Notes: a model not told the origin generated them from the letters alone. DNA of 64,000 bases from Eubacteriaceae bacterium (GCA_017551505.1 JAFZLL010000042.1:1-64000); one strand, 5' to 3'. Counted from the stretch's first letter, positions 4,745 to 9,407 are shown. Program-made: numbers and translations.

Positions 4745-4772
4745 TTGTAATATCCCTGCCGTGTGCTATAAT
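4745..4772 (+). promoter_or_regulatory. Sigma-A promoter of the ispD / PDH-like operon
   Basis: TTGTAA at 4745-4750 and TATAAT at 4767-4772 are separated by 16 bases, with a TG one base ahead of the -10 box (extended -10). Transcription would start near 4779, only a few bases before the ribosome site GGGGAA and the ATG at 4787. Confidence 0.7.
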
Positions 4773-4786
4773 ATTCGGGGAATACC

Positions 4787-5518
4787 ATGTATAAAAAGCG
4801 TATAATGAGTGTTCTTATTCCTGCGGCAGGCATTTCCAGACGCATGGAAGGTCTGGGAAGCAAGCCGTACATCACCTTATTCGGCAAAAGCGTGCTTTAT
4901 TATGTTCTGAGAGCATTCGCAGCCTCCCCGTACACAGGGGAGATCATAGCCGCAGTAAGGGCGGGTGAGGAGGATCTGGCCTGCAGAGCTGCAGCAGAAG
5001 CATGTCCTGATATCCCGTTCAAAACAGTTATCGGAGGAATGACCCGCCAGGAGAGCGTATACTCCGCAATCAAAGCCAGCGATGACTCTTTCCGTCTGAT
5101 TGCAGTCCATGACGCAGCGAGACCCTGCATAACCTCAGACCTTATCAACAGGGTCGCGGAAGCCGCTCTGGCGGCAGGTGCTGCAACGGCCGCATCTCCC
5201 ATGACGGACACTGTCGGGGTGATAGAGACCTCAAAAGAAGGCGCTGTGATTTCCGGCTATGAAGACAGAGAAAAGCTGGTACGCATCGCCACCCCGCAGA
5301 TATTCGATCGTAAGATCCTCATTGCCGCACATGAGACCGCCAGGACAAATGCCCTCTCTTTTACCGACGACAGCTCTCTTGTTAGATCAGCCGGGACAAG
5401 GGCCATGGCAGTGATAAGCAATGAGAACAATATCAAAATAACCGTTCCCGCCGACCTGGCAACAGCATCGGCGACACTTTCTGGAATGATAAATATAGAT
5501 GAAAAGGATGCATCCTGA
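4787..5518 (+). CDS. ispD: 2-C-methyl-D-erythritol 4-phosphate cytidylyltransferase
   Basis: IspD joins CTP to methylerythritol phosphate, the third step of the MEP isoprenoid pathway, in the cytoplasm. At 243 residues it has the family's normal length. The CTP-binding start reads PAAGISRRM (consensus PAAGxGxRM) followed by the conserved lysine in GSKPY; VHDAARPC and the late TDD motif are present. The ATG at 4787 follows GGGGAA by five bases; an ATG six codons on is an alternative. The next gene begins two bases after the stop, so ispD appears to head the operon holding the PDH-like genes. ispF is not adjacent. Confidence 0.92.
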   Translation: MYKKRIMSVLIPAAGISRRMEGLGSKPYITLFGKSVLYYVLRAFAASPYTGEIIAAVRAGEEDLACRAAAEACPDIPFKTVIGGMTRQESVYSAIKASDDSFRLIAVHDAARPCITSDLINRVAEAALAAGAATAASPMTDTVGVIETSKEGAVISGYEDREKLVRIATPQIFDRKILIAAHETARTNALSFTDDSSLVRSAGTRAMAVISNENNIKITVPADLATASATLSGMINIDEKDAS

Positions 5519-5519
5519 A

Positions 5520-6458
5520 ATGAACACGAACACCTCGCTGCAGATCTTTTACAAAATGATGAAGGCACGGCTTCTTGAAGAAGTCGCGGTCAAACTGAAG
5601 GAAAGAGGGCTGATCGCCGATGAACTTCGTCTAAGCCTCGGCCAGGAGGCAGTCGCGGCTGCAGTATGCTCTTTGTCGCTGAACGACGTGATCTTCGTTC
5701 CCCGCCGCAATATTTCTTCACTGATCGCCGCCAATGTCCCGTCCATATCTATCCTGTCGGAGCTGTGCGGGCTAAAGGAAGGCATGTGCGGAGGCAAAGG
5801 GGGGCTGGACTGCGCCGCTTGGAGCGATTCCAACGTCTTTGGTCCAATGGCTTCTCCCGATTCCTCGCTGATGAGAGCCTGCGGTACGGCGCTCTCCTTC
5901 TCACTGCAGGGACTGCCCTACTGTGTGCTTTGCATCGTAGGCGACTCCGCCGCTGCCAGAGGGGATCTATACACGGCGATGAATTATGCTGCACTCAATA
6001 ATCTGCGCATAGTATTCTATGTGGAAAACAACGGCTACGCCGGACGCAGCCGCACGAAGGACACCATCAATGTATCAGAGATATCCCGGAGAGCCAATGG
6101 CTTCGAGATACCGGGCCTCACCGTTGACGGAAACGATACAAATGCCGTTTACGAGGCTGTTGACCAGGCTGTATCGTTCAGCCGCCAGAACAGGAAACCG
6201 GCCCTGATAGAGGCGGTTACTTACCGCTTGGCTGGGGAAACGTATGAGGAGATTCAGAGCTACCGCAGCGAAGAAGAAGTCAATATGCATGCCGCTATAG
6301 ACCCGATCGAGATACATACAAGATATATGATTGAAGCCGGCATAGGCCAGATCGGCGACTTTTTATCCATGCGCGAAGCCATTCAGGATGAGATCGACGC
6401 CGCAGTGGACAATGTGCTTGCGCTGATCAGAGAAAGGATCGGAGGTGGGGAAGAGTGA
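5520..6458 (+). CDS. PDH E1 alpha-like protein lacking catalytic histidines (likely pseudoenzyme)
   Basis: About 312 residues, homologous along its length to the alpha subunit of thiamine-diphosphate 2-oxoacid or acetoin dehydrogenases: GLKEGMCGGKGG, the TPP/Mg motif IVGDSAAARG to VENNGYA, then IPGLTVDGND. Key residues differ. Where active enzymes have a histidine after GGKGG (often GSMHM), this one has GGLDCAAW. The late loop RYxxH/RxxGH reads TYRLAGETY. The earlier YRxHG stretch is FVPRRNI, and GDG is GDS. The Mg-ligand Asp and Asn pair remain, so cofactor binding is conceivable but normal decarboxylation is unlikely. The frame is intact. ATG 5520 lies two bases after ispD; an in-frame ATG at 5499 would overlap ispD. 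The downstream beta subunit overlaps it by four bases. Confidence 0.8.
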   Translation: MNTNTSLQIFYKMMKARLLEEVAVKLKERGLIADELRLSLGQEAVAAAVCSLSLNDVIFVPRRNISSLIAANVPSISILSELCGLKEGMCGGKGGLDCAAWSDSNVFGPMASPDSSLMRACGTALSFSLQGLPYCVLCIVGDSAAARGDLYTAMNYAALNNLRIVFYVENNGYAGRSRTKDTINVSEISRRANGFEIPGLTVDGNDTNAVYEAVDQAVSFSRQNRKPALIEAVTYRLAGETYEEIQSYRSEEEVNMHAAIDPIEIHTRYMIEAGIGQIGDFLSMREAIQDEIDAAVDNVLALIRERIGGGEE

Positions 6459-7435
6459 AAGAATTGACATATTTCAAAGCCGCGGCAGAGGCAATCAGCC
6501 GCGCATTGGGTGACAACGATAAAATAGTAGTGCTCGGAAAAGGGATGACGGCAGGCGGCAAGGACGGTCTGTTCAATGAGATTTTCCTCAAATACGGGAG
6601 AAGCCGCGTACTGGACGGGACCGCAGATGACAAATCGAATATCCGCATCGCCCTCGGACTGGCCGCTACCGGAGCACTTCCTCTGGTTGTAATAGACGGG
6701 GAAAACCTGTACAGCTGCATCGAAGCCATTGCGGTCGACGCATGCTGCGCACAGACAGCATTCAACGGACAATATTCCTCATCGATAGTGATCTGGTCCG
6801 ATTACGGCTACGCAGATGGGGACACCCCGGCAGAAACTTTCCTTTCAGAAGGTTTCTTCGCGTCACTGCCGAACTTGACAGTCTATTGCCCTTCCTGCCC
6901 GGAAGATGCCTGCTCGATGATGGCCACCGCATTGCGTTTCCCATACAACGGACCTACGCTGGTCCTTACTGACAGATCTATGAGGGAGACCACAGCCAAG
7001 GTGACCGAAGAAGACGCTGCCCCTGTAAGACCACAGGCCGGATCCCAGGTGATCAAAGAAGGCGGCGATGTTACGCTAGTCTCCTATGGAGCCATGATGC
7101 AGGCATCGATGGAAGCCGCTTACCGCGCTTCCCAAGCGGGCTGCGAGTGCGAGCTCATCGACTTAAGATGCTTGAACCCGATAGATACCGCACCGGTTAT
7201 AGCTTCTGTCAAGAAGACAGGCAGGCTGGCCGTGGCCCAGGCAGGCTGGCCCAGAGGCGGCGTGGGAGATATACTGATCTCCGCTGTCATGAGCTCGGAA
7301 GCCTTTGACTACATGGAAAAGCCCGTGAAGATCGTTTCACCCCCCAATAAGGTGATCCCTTACGGGGATTTCGCGGAGAAGACCGTACTCCCAGGCTGGG
7401 AGGAAGTGTATTTCGCCATTATTTCATTGATATAG
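6455..7435 (+). CDS. PDH E1 beta-like protein with altered active site (likely pseudoenzyme)
   Basis: 326 residues with the transketolase-type pyrimidine-binding and C-terminal domains of E1 beta subunits: KYGRSRVLDG, LPNLTVYCPSCPEDA, VTLVSYGAMM, ELIDLRCLNPID and GWPRGGVGD all match. Active-site positions do not. GEDV is replaced by GKGM. The TPxxE stretch whose glutamate activates TPP reads DGTADDK. The LHSD/QHSQ histidine region reads TPAETF. The GTG start overlaps the E1 alpha stop (GTGA), indicating coupled translation and probably a heterotetramer with that partner. The conserved fold with substituted catalytic sites suggests a structural, binding or altered-chemistry role. Confidence 0.8.
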   Translation: MKELTYFKAAAEAISRALGDNDKIVVLGKGMTAGGKDGLFNEIFLKYGRSRVLDGTADDKSNIRIALGLAATGALPLVVIDGENLYSCIEAIAVDACCAQTAFNGQYSSSIVIWSDYGYADGDTPAETFLSEGFFASLPNLTVYCPSCPEDACSMMATALRFPYNGPTLVLTDRSMRETTAKVTEEDAAPVRPQAGSQVIKEGGDVTLVSYGAMMQASMEAAYRASQAGCECELIDLRCLNPIDTAPVIASVKKTGRLAVAQAGWPRGGVGDILISAVMSSEAFDYMEKPVKIVSPPNKVIPYGDFAEKTVLPGWEEVYFAIISLI

Positions 7436-7444
7436 GTGATAAAT

Positions 7445-8902
7445 ATGAACGATGATTTTGACGGTAGAGTAAAAGCAGCCCCGGCGGTCAGACGGATCGC
7501 CAGGGAAAACGGCGTAGACCTGAGGGAGGTCATCCCCGGCGGAGAGGATGGACGCATAACTGTTGTTGACATCGAATCCTACATCGCCGCCAAGAGGAGC
7601 GTACAGGAAGCCCTGGCCGCTATGGACAGGGAGGAATTCGGAGAGGTTGCTTCAACCGAATCTGCACCGATCGAGCCTATAAAAGCACAGGCAGAAATCG
7701 GGGCATACACCGCAGAGCCCGTTCAGCAGTCAGATGCTCCTTCAGGAGCGCAGCATGATAATGCCGATGAATTTACGATGGGAGTGTATGTGCCCTCGTC
7801 GGCAGCAGATGATACGGAAGACAATCTTATCAGCAAAGAGGACCTGACATCCGCAAAAGAAGAACCTGCGTACACCGGTGCGTACAGCGCGGTGGGCATC
7901 AGTGTTCCTTCCGCCGAATCGGAAGAGATCGGCACGGAACCGGAACCATCTGAGGAAAACGTGGTCCCTCCCGCATCAGATACCATATCCCCTGGAGCAG
8001 TACCGGACGTATCCTTTGACAGTGACGCCGCAGACAATCAGGCTGTTTCAACTCCTGAGGGCGAAGAACCGGTCACTGAAGAGAATGTCCAGGAAGATGA
8101 GGAGCCTGTCAGCGAAGACGAGCTCAGGAATGCACGCAAAATCATGCGCCTTCGTCCCGCAAAGCCTGAGACACCCAACGAAAATGACTTTGAAGATATC
8201 GCCCAGGATGCCTTATCCAAGGATCAGAACGACCTTCTTTCCTCCCTCTATGACGGTTATATAGCTGAAAAACCCGATGAGGATAAAGAAGATAATTACG
8301 AAAACATCATAGACGAGGACAGTGAGGATACCATCAAGACAGTTCCTCAGGCCCGCGAAGACACCGGAGAAGACGATGAAGCGAAAGAAGAAACCGGCAG
8401 CAGCGCAGGCCAGGAGACCGTCGGACGCGTGTACTTCTCTGTGGAAAAGCGCTTCTTTGACGCGCTGGTGGATATCTCCGCCGGTACTCTCGATAGCGGC
8501 TACCGGCGCTGTCTTGCAAAAGCTCTGGCACTCGCATTCCGAAATTCCGGAGATTATCCGGAAAATCTGGATGTCGTCGCGCCCACGACTGATGGCTTTG
8601 AGAAGCTGACCTATGTTTCAGCTGCCAGCACCCCATTAAACCAGATCCTGCGCGATCCTTCCGAGGAACATCCCGATGTGCTCGCCGAGCTATGGGACAT
8701 GAGGGACTTCGGCGTTGACGGAGTGGAATTCTTTGCTTCGGGAAAAATGCGTTTCTTCGTCAATTCAAATGACAAGATGATGAACGTAAATATCGTATTC
8801 GATTTAAGAACGATAAGCGTATTTGACGCGCTGACCGTCTCAGGACACTTCAAGGACATCCTCTGTGATCCTCTGAGCGAAGCCAGACGTTTCATAATGT
8901 GA
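7445..8902 (+). CDS. E2-like scaffold: subunit-binding domain, acidic linker, degenerate acyltransferase domain
   Basis: 485 residues. Residues about 8-47 form a peripheral subunit-binding domain (APAVRRIARENGVDLREV, then GRITVVDIESYI), the module by which E2 chains hold E1 or E3. Residues 60-320 are a strongly acidic, low-complexity linker. The C-terminal 170 residues resemble a shortened E2 catalytic domain (DFGVDGVEFFASGK, FKDILCDP), but the catalytic DHRxxDG motif reads DLRTISVFD, so the histidine is lost. No N-terminal lipoyl domain or lipoyl-lysine motif exists. ATG 7445 follows AGGTGA by five bases; GTG 7436 is possible. It lies nine bases after the E1 beta-like gene. Confidence 0.75.
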   Translation: MNDDFDGRVKAAPAVRRIARENGVDLREVIPGGEDGRITVVDIESYIAAKRSVQEALAAMDREEFGEVASTESAPIEPIKAQAEIGAYTAEPVQQSDAPSGAQHDNADEFTMGVYVPSSAADDTEDNLISKEDLTSAKEEPAYTGAYSAVGISVPSAESEEIGTEPEPSEENVVPPASDTISPGAVPDVSFDSDAADNQAVSTPEGEEPVTEENVQEDEEPVSEDELRNARKIMRLRPAKPETPNENDFEDIAQDALSKDQNDLLSSLYDGYIAEKPDEDKEDNYENIIDEDSEDTIKTVPQAREDTGEDDEAKEETGSSAGQETVGRVYFSVEKRFFDALVDISAGTLDSGYRRCLAKALALAFRNSGDYPENLDVVAPTTDGFEKLTYVSAASTPLNQILRDPSEEHPDVLAELWDMRDFGVDGVEFFASGKMRFFVNSNDKMMNVNIVFDLRTISVFDALTVSGHFKDILCDPLSEARRFIM

Positions 8903-8915
8903 GGAGACTTAGAAA

Positions 8916-9407
8916 ATGAGAAGACTCAAACTGAAATCACCGGTCAGATTTTTCGGGGTCATTGCTGTATTAGTCATCTTGATCTTTTTCTGCGCACTGC
9001 TGCTTAAGGGCATAAGCAAAGACGAAGTGGTCTCTGAAATAGAAAAGGTGGAAAAAGGAAAGGTCACCGTAACTTCCGTCGAGATCAAGGCACATTACAA
9101 CAATATGGATGTGGCAAGCGGAGATACTGTTCTGCAGGGCAGCAAGATCTCCTTCAGCGCGGTGTACAATTATAAAGTCAAGAATTCCGCCGAAGCCAAG
9201 ACATGGGAAGTCACAAAAGGGCTGACCATCAGCGACGATACGGCAGCAGATATTTCCGCCGGCAAAGTCACCATAGGCGACGGCTTCGTGATCGTCGGAC
9301 TCGGGAAAGAGGAAACCTTTACCGTTACGCTTAAGGTGACTTACCTCAAAACCGTCAAGGAATTCACATTCACCGTACCTGGAAGTGACGCTTCGCCCGA
9401 AAGCTGA
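8916..9407 (+). CDS. Single-pass membrane protein of unknown function, last gene of the PDH-like operon
   Basis: 163 residues, family not recognised. The N-terminus is basic (RRLKLKS), followed by one hydrophobic helix at about residues 12-30, then a predicted extracytoplasmic beta-rich region with alternating T/V/S residues and repeated KVT strands. There is no lipobox or cell-wall anchor. It starts 13 bases after the E2-like gene with a GAGGAGA ribosome site, and the operon terminator follows, so it is co-transcribed. It may tether or sense for the cytoplasmic complex, but that is inference from position only. Confidence 0.65.
   Translation: MRRLKLKSPVRFFGVIAVLVILIFFCALLLKGISKDEVVSEIEKVEKGKVTVTSVEIKAHYNNMDVASGDTVLQGSKISFSAVYNYKVKNSAEAKTWEVTKGLTISDDTAADISAGKVTIGDGFVIVGLGKEETFTVTLKVTYLKTVKEFTFTVPGSDASPES

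Follow-up and report, generated by a model that had tools for sequence, protein, structure and literature searches.

The stretch of DNA analysed here (the window) comprises 64,000 nucleotides from Eubacteriaceae bacterium (GCA_017551505.1 JAFZLL010000042.1:1-64000). Five genes on its plus strand form an apparent operon in the order ispD, E1alpha-like, E1beta-like, E2-like and membrane protein, with short overlaps and gaps of at most 13 bases. The first gene (4787..5518) encodes the MEP cytidylyltransferase IspD and scored 186 bits against TIGR00453, for which the curated cut-off is 181. The second (5520..6458) encodes an E1alpha-like pseudo-subunit, which matched Pfam E1_dh (3.4e-45) and the E1alpha subunits of pyruvate dehydrogenase (PDH) and BCKDH in the PDB. 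It is overlapped by 4 bases by the gene for an E1beta-like pseudo-subunit (6455..7435, GTG start), with matches to Pfam Transket_pyr and Transketolase_C and to PDH E1beta in the PDB. The gene for a lipoyl-less E2-like scaffold protein of 488 amino acids (7436..8902, also with a GTG start) abuts the E1beta-like gene directly. The last gene (8916..9407) encodes a membrane protein of 163 amino acids with a transmembrane helix at about residues 10-34 and a beta-sandwich, Ig-like domain; its predicted model had a pLDDT of 79.6, the matches to Ig-like folds were weak, and homologues were present in three relatives (G001, G006 and G011). A first-pass annotation had described four packed genes with open frames between 5520 and 9407, and this description held. 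No gene for E3 was found between 4787 and 9407, and the cluster is thus without the CxxxxC E3 of a complete 2-oxoacid dehydrogenase complex. The best promoter candidate for the five-gene unit, a weak one, is a site upstream of ispD (TTGTAA-16-TATAAT with an extended TG, 4745..4772, plus strand), which scored 10/12 in a consensus scan; the scan gave 9 promoter-like sites in the region against 5.2 expected, which lends it weak support. At the window edge (8-304) the end of a TnpB/IS605-type protein with a zinc-finger C-terminus was recognized by eye from the translation.

Both E1-like proteins gave full-length significant matches to the E1_dh and the transketolase pyr and C domains, and the closest solved structures were the E1 alpha and beta subunits of PDH and 2-oxoacid dehydrogenases. 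Human PDH and active paralogues served as alignment references for the residue calls. In the alignment with human PDHA1, the E1alpha position of His63 is occupied by Arg37 (5628..5630), that of His92 by Ile65 (5712..5714) and that of the loop residue His263 by Glu240 (6237..6239). In the E1beta-like protein the ThDP-activating Glu59 is Asp59 (6629..6631), a conservative change in the source genome, His128 is replaced by Glu127 (6833..6835), and GKGM stands in place of GEDV. The five chemistry positions (alpha His63, His92, His263; beta Glu59, His128) read RIEDE, against HHHEH in active PDH, BCKDH and acetoin dehydrogenase E1. The Mg-ThDP motif GDG reads GDS (5940..5948), with the Asp ligand kept and the Gly changed to Ser, and the ENN motif with the Mg-ligand Asn (6027..6032) is retained. 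Among the family sequences the Asp of the GDG motif is Asp in 11/12 and Glu in 1/12, while Arg63, at the R90 position next to the H92 position, is retained in all 12.

The E2-like protein has a peripheral-subunit-binding domain (PSBD; Pfam E3_binding, 45.5 bits) at residues 12-47 (7469..7576). This was its sole Pfam domain, with no Biotin_lipoyl match that would indicate a lipoyl domain with its lipoyl-Lys and no Pfam match for the C-terminal domain. It is also the only PSBD found in the source genome. Without a lipoyl arm, the E2-derived scaffold cannot carry acyl groups. An acidic low-complexity linker of 270 amino acids (7601..8410), containing 27% D+E and 6% K+R, leads to a degenerate E2 catalytic-core domain (8411..8899). 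The C-terminal 177 amino acids were modelled with AlphaFold (pLDDT 83.7), and Foldseek matched the model to E2 catalytic cores with E values of about 2e-8 and TM scores of 0.6-0.7; the core of human E3BP (6h60) was among the matches. Although the core fold is present, the DHRxxDG motif reads DLRTISV, with the catalytic His replaced by Leu (8804-8806; DLR for DHR). All residue losses that the first-pass annotation had named in E1alpha, E1beta and E2 were thus present in the alignments, and the Mg-binding Asp and Asn and the subunit-binding domain were kept, as it had also reported. The silent E1alpha of Anaerofustis and of G008 is extended at its C-terminus by an acidic stretch of about 160-310 amino acids, which resembles the linker of the PSBD protein (L041:4705-6570, L042:4913-6754, L044:2005-3402).

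The genes for E1alpha, E1beta and the PSBD protein occurred together in all 13 genomes of the family that were examined, representing 8 genera and including Anaerofustis stercorihominis (L134, L137) and uncultured relatives (L124-L130); in G011 the trio is split over two short contigs. It directly follows ispD in 9/13 genomes and is away from ispD, yet still kept together, in G002, G004, G005 and G010. Altered chemistry positions were found in 12/12 E1 pairs of the family, against 0/35 unlinked E1 pairs, so that chance is not the explanation. The 12 pairs read RIEDE, RTTDE, CFYKI, FFYSL, HFHEL, RDDSA, YTSIA, YASIG, YFHED (three times) and YLHEE. Beta Glu59 and alpha His263 persist in Anaerofustis, G005 and G008, where some residual ThDP chemistry is possible. 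Almost all family genomes also have a canonical E1 pair. In a FastTree phylogeny the silent E1 sequences formed one clade (local support 1.0) apart from these canonical copies. Midpoint rooting placed the silent clade at the base, which is probably a long-branch effect; its nearest neighbours in the unrooted tree were the ispD-E1-ispF pairs of G015, G019 and G026, with a weak support of 0.53. Sequencing errors or frameshifts were rejected as the cause of the losses, as the frames are open in every genome with full contig coverage of the genes.

Site classes were compared in 12 silent sequences over 116 columns, each of which is conserved to at least 95% in a set of 49 canonical pairs. The six Mg-ThDP diphosphate columns (Asp167, Gly168, Asn196, Tyr198, Arg90 and His/Tyr89) were 93% retained, the six chemistry columns 15% and the remaining 104 invariant columns 65%. 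The differences between column classes gave Mann-Whitney p values of 0.001 and 0.02, which are indicative because the rows are related. Within the silent clade the chemistry columns are variable: the H92 position is F, T, I, D, A or L, the H128 position E, D, L, A, I or G, and the E59 position E, D, S, I or K. The first-pass annotation had regarded the loss as limited to catalytic sites. It is concentrated there, but the core of E2 has become shorter as well, and roughly one-third of the remaining invariant columns show drift.

The dN/dS comparison proposed in that annotation gave values of 0.01-0.15 for the silent trio. As dS was saturated in the window's own pair (G000-G001), selection was measured in relatives. 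In the only clearly unsaturated pair, G009-G012 (Anaerofustis), the E1alpha fold had a dN/dS of 0.017, E1beta one of 0.012 and the E2 core one of 0.042, and the PSBD, with few sites (55 codons), gave 0; these values lie near the 0.012 and 0 obtained for the active E1alpha and E1beta in the two genomes. The deeply eroded pair G004-G010 gave 0.145 and 0.137 at a dS of about 2. The cleanest values come from the less eroded copies of Anaerofustis, and in the other pairs dS was saturated or nearly so. Neutral decay can be rejected in those lineages that allowed dN/dS to be measured, and the loss of motifs is accompanied by purifying selection as measured in these relatives.

The Eubacterium/Acetobacterium family has at the same place the order aminotransferase - tsaE - ispD - E1alpha - E1beta - E2 - [E3] - guaA. 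In the Eubacterium callanderi/limosum group (L069, L133) this ispD-linked PDH is complete, with canonical E1, the lipoyl DK motif, DHRVADG and an E3 with CxxxxC. The window locus shares its neighbourhood, the E1 folds and the PSBD, but has lost all of these catalytic features, E3 being absent. The first-pass annotation had suggested a search for the gene order in other Clostridia: the order of the trio is constant across the family genomes, and ispD-linked PDH genes exist in related families. Stages between the two were also present. Several Acetobacterium genomes have an ispD-linked E2 without a lipoyl domain, G025 has lost one E3 cysteine, and E1 residues are lost in the ispD-linked copies of G014, G034, G059, G056, G031/G062 and G043. 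On the tree, these probably represent three further independent erosions outside the silent family. There, a chemistry residue was lost in 7/21 ispD-linked E1 pairs compared with 0/35 unlinked pairs (Fisher p 0.0005, uncorrected for relatedness). Something about the ispD-linked locus repeatedly permits or favours silencing. The ispD-linked copy of G014 (L078:4307-7218), an Acetobacterium and a tractable acetogen, is partly silenced, with H263Q and GDS in E1alpha and an E2 without a lipoyl domain. E3-like flavoproteins without one or both redox cysteines are encoded in related operons (L054:8647-10041, L049:4002-5435, L052:9575-10972), so that silencing can begin at E3 with E1 still canonical.

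No DXS above the curated cut-off was found in the 13 family genomes, several of which are drafts; the sub-threshold matches were split transketolases and E1beta chains. HMG-CoA reductase was likewise not found in the 13 genomes. IspD was present in 13/13, IspF in 11/13, including the source genome, and DXR (E <= 0.001) in 6/13. A role of IspD outside isoprenoid synthesis was rejected, given that the ispD equivalog cut-off was passed, IspF is present in most genomes and HMG-CoA reductase is missing.

The canonical E1alpha-beta pair of the source genome lies on contig C11 (L053, 10454-12413) and lacks a partner E2 with a lipoyl domain; a free-standing 297-aa protein was the sole match to an E2 core in this genome. 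The latter (L121:3308-4201) is E2-core-like (CAT), without a lipoyl or binding domain, and similar proteins occur in G001, G006 and G007. The E1 pair is divergent from an adjoining 431-aa protein, which matched 3UPL/3UPY with 331 bits. These are structures of Brucella DRL, and the neighbour is a DRL/DXR-II homologue. An aspartate-semialdehyde dehydrogenase follows (L053:10454-13867), and the same arrangement was seen in G001.

Two other families of the order have a canonical E1alpha-beta pair without E2 between ispD and ispF (L057, L061, L080, L119). The genomes that carry them (G013, G017, G019 and G026) are without DXS, and all of these but G017 are without a real E2 core. Such E2-less pairs, lying either between ispD and ispF or at their side and mostly in DXS-less genomes, are located at L061:6739-9975, L119:5038-8567, L057:6135-9664 and L080:3122-6646, and further ones at L181, L191 and L192. 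In 50/78 relatives from named genomes, a sample biased by the use of a query from this clade, ispD, ispF or DRL lies at most 9 kb from E1; many of those genomes have DXS. E1-E2-E3 clusters near DRL, some also near ispF, occur in many Clostridia (L138, L156, L161, L166, L167, L175, L179, L190). These clusters could serve either DXP synthesis or DXP/methylerythritol breakdown. In the alternative direction, by analogy with acetoin dehydrogenase, the clusters beside DRL would degrade DXP to acetyl-CoA and GAP.

Mutants of E. coli AceE make DXP (PMC3424233), which shows that DXP for the MEP pathway can come from a PDH E1. That case is a mutated active E1 and bears on the canonical MEP-linked E1 pairs, not on the silent pair. 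A survey from 2023 listed 172 candidate species with neither DXS nor a known substitute (PMC10663253). Since the family is without DXS and the pairs lie beside ispD/ispF or DRL, the canonical E2-less E1alpha-beta pairs are candidates for the missing DXP synthase, and we infer from the sequences that such pairs may be a natural source of DXP in bacteria with this linkage.

We consider the locus to encode a conserved PDH-derived pseudoenzyme complex rather than a decaying one; this reading as a whole, with the function proposed below, has a probability of roughly 0.6. The losses, the family-wide distribution, the retained diphosphate site, the purifying selection and the constant order of the trio are directly visible in the sequences, and the occurrence of the trio throughout the family, the column retention, the dN/dS values and the pattern of erosion argue for a complex under maintenance. 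In the silent E1alpha and E1beta the E1 fold is preserved together with the Mg-diphosphate anchor of ThDP, but the proton-relay histidines are gone, as is the activating Glu in most members. As the lipoyl arm and E3 are missing in addition, a PDH cycle would be impossible, and canonical 2-oxoacid dehydrogenase activity is very probably absent. A non-catalytic function has probably been retained. With the E1 fold and the PSBD, the parts needed to build the complex survive alongside the diphosphate anchor. In the most economical reading the chains would associate as before and bind, without turning it over, ThDP or a different Mg-diphosphate ligand, and the E2-derived scaffold, with its binding domain, flexible acidic linker and degenerate core, would tether the pseudo-E1. 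With less certainty, the silent complex may serve an active partner as scaffold or prozyme; the odds that it is a ligand-holding scaffold or prozyme as such seem about even. The first-pass annotation had proposed selection for a new role as scaffold, sensor or new chemistry. The conservation of the trio, the dN/dS values and the Mg-diphosphate anchors bear this out in so far as selection keeps a complex without PDH chemistry, but new chemistry is disfavoured, and the role may be that of a scaffold, a sensor or a prozyme.

The most plausible partner of such a complex would be the E2-less canonical E1alpha-beta of the same genome, which is a neighbour of DRL and may be the source of DXP for the MEP pathway; the linkage to ispD and the lack of another full E2 in the source genome point to this client, which we name tentatively. 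The silent E1alpha-beta would then join a mixed assembly with the active MEP-linked E1, or be bridged to it by the PSBD, and activate or gate DXP formation. This proposal accommodates the absence of DXS from the family, the E2-less active E1 adjoining DRL in both G000 and G001 and the single PSBD in the genome. A strictly MEP-related role is weakened by the four genomes with the trio away from ispD and by several relatives that keep the trio along with a complete second PDH, and we regard it as possible but rather doubtful.

Less probable still is a ThDP enzyme in which the substituted active-site residues run a different reaction. Glyoxylate carboligase works without the canonical Glu, the Mg-diphosphate site is largely kept, and position 59 is Glu or Asp in 7/12 sequences. 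New chemistry is nevertheless disfavoured because the replaced positions vary freely and reach no new consensus within the one clade. It is also improbable, somewhat more so, that the locus is a relic of a dispensable second PDH, lost stepwise in anaerobes that use other routes for pyruvate. The gradation of ispD-linked clusters within the order, from intact to eroded, would fit such a course, as would the early loss of the lipoyl domain and the E3 cysteines in some lineages. Canonical orthologues and an active paralogue do exist, which the first-pass annotation had considered a possible sign of simple decay, but the low dN/dS and the presence in 8 genera, with constant gene order and open frames wherever contigs cover the genes, disfavour decay. 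That the silent pair itself is an active DXP synthase in place of DXS, as the linkage to ispD and the absence of DXS might suggest, is rejected as very improbable: DXS catalysis also requires the activating Glu and active-site histidines, these columns are lost and too variable here, the window E1beta scored 67 bits against the TIGR00204 cut-off of 466, and nearly every family genome has a canonical pair.

The pseudoenzyme complex resembles known systems in part. The animal PDH E3-binding protein (PDHX), a non-catalytic E2, likewise combines a binding domain with an E2-core fold without the catalytic His. E3BP keeps its lipoyl domain and serves an active complex, whereas the window protein has no lipoyl domain and its E1 partners are silent as well. 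The trypanosome AdoMetDC prozyme (PMC5201418) and plant PDX1.2 (PMC6829848) are also catalytically dead paralogues kept beside an active enzyme. For the trio described here regulation of a partner is a proposal, and the dead unit is a multi-protein complex instead of a single chain.

In the literature searched, no description of such a silenced PDH complex and nothing relevant on PDH pseudoenzymes was found. Most pseudoenzymes are lone dead paralogues, whereas in this case three components of one complex, E1alpha, E1beta and E2, fell silent jointly and have been maintained throughout the evolution of a bacterial family. As intermediate stages survive in cultured relatives, the route from enzyme to scaffold is directly testable. 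The gene context further suggests that a natural substitute for DXS exists, for which the canonical E1alpha-beta pairs between ispD and ispF in genomes without DXS and E2 are a concrete candidate. The full proposal, that a PDH-type E1alpha-beta carries out the first step of isoprenoid synthesis instead of DXS and that the silenced E1alpha-beta/PSBD trio regulates it as a module that holds ThDP, is speculative. If it is true, an entire dehydrogenase complex would have been converted into a controller for a different pathway.
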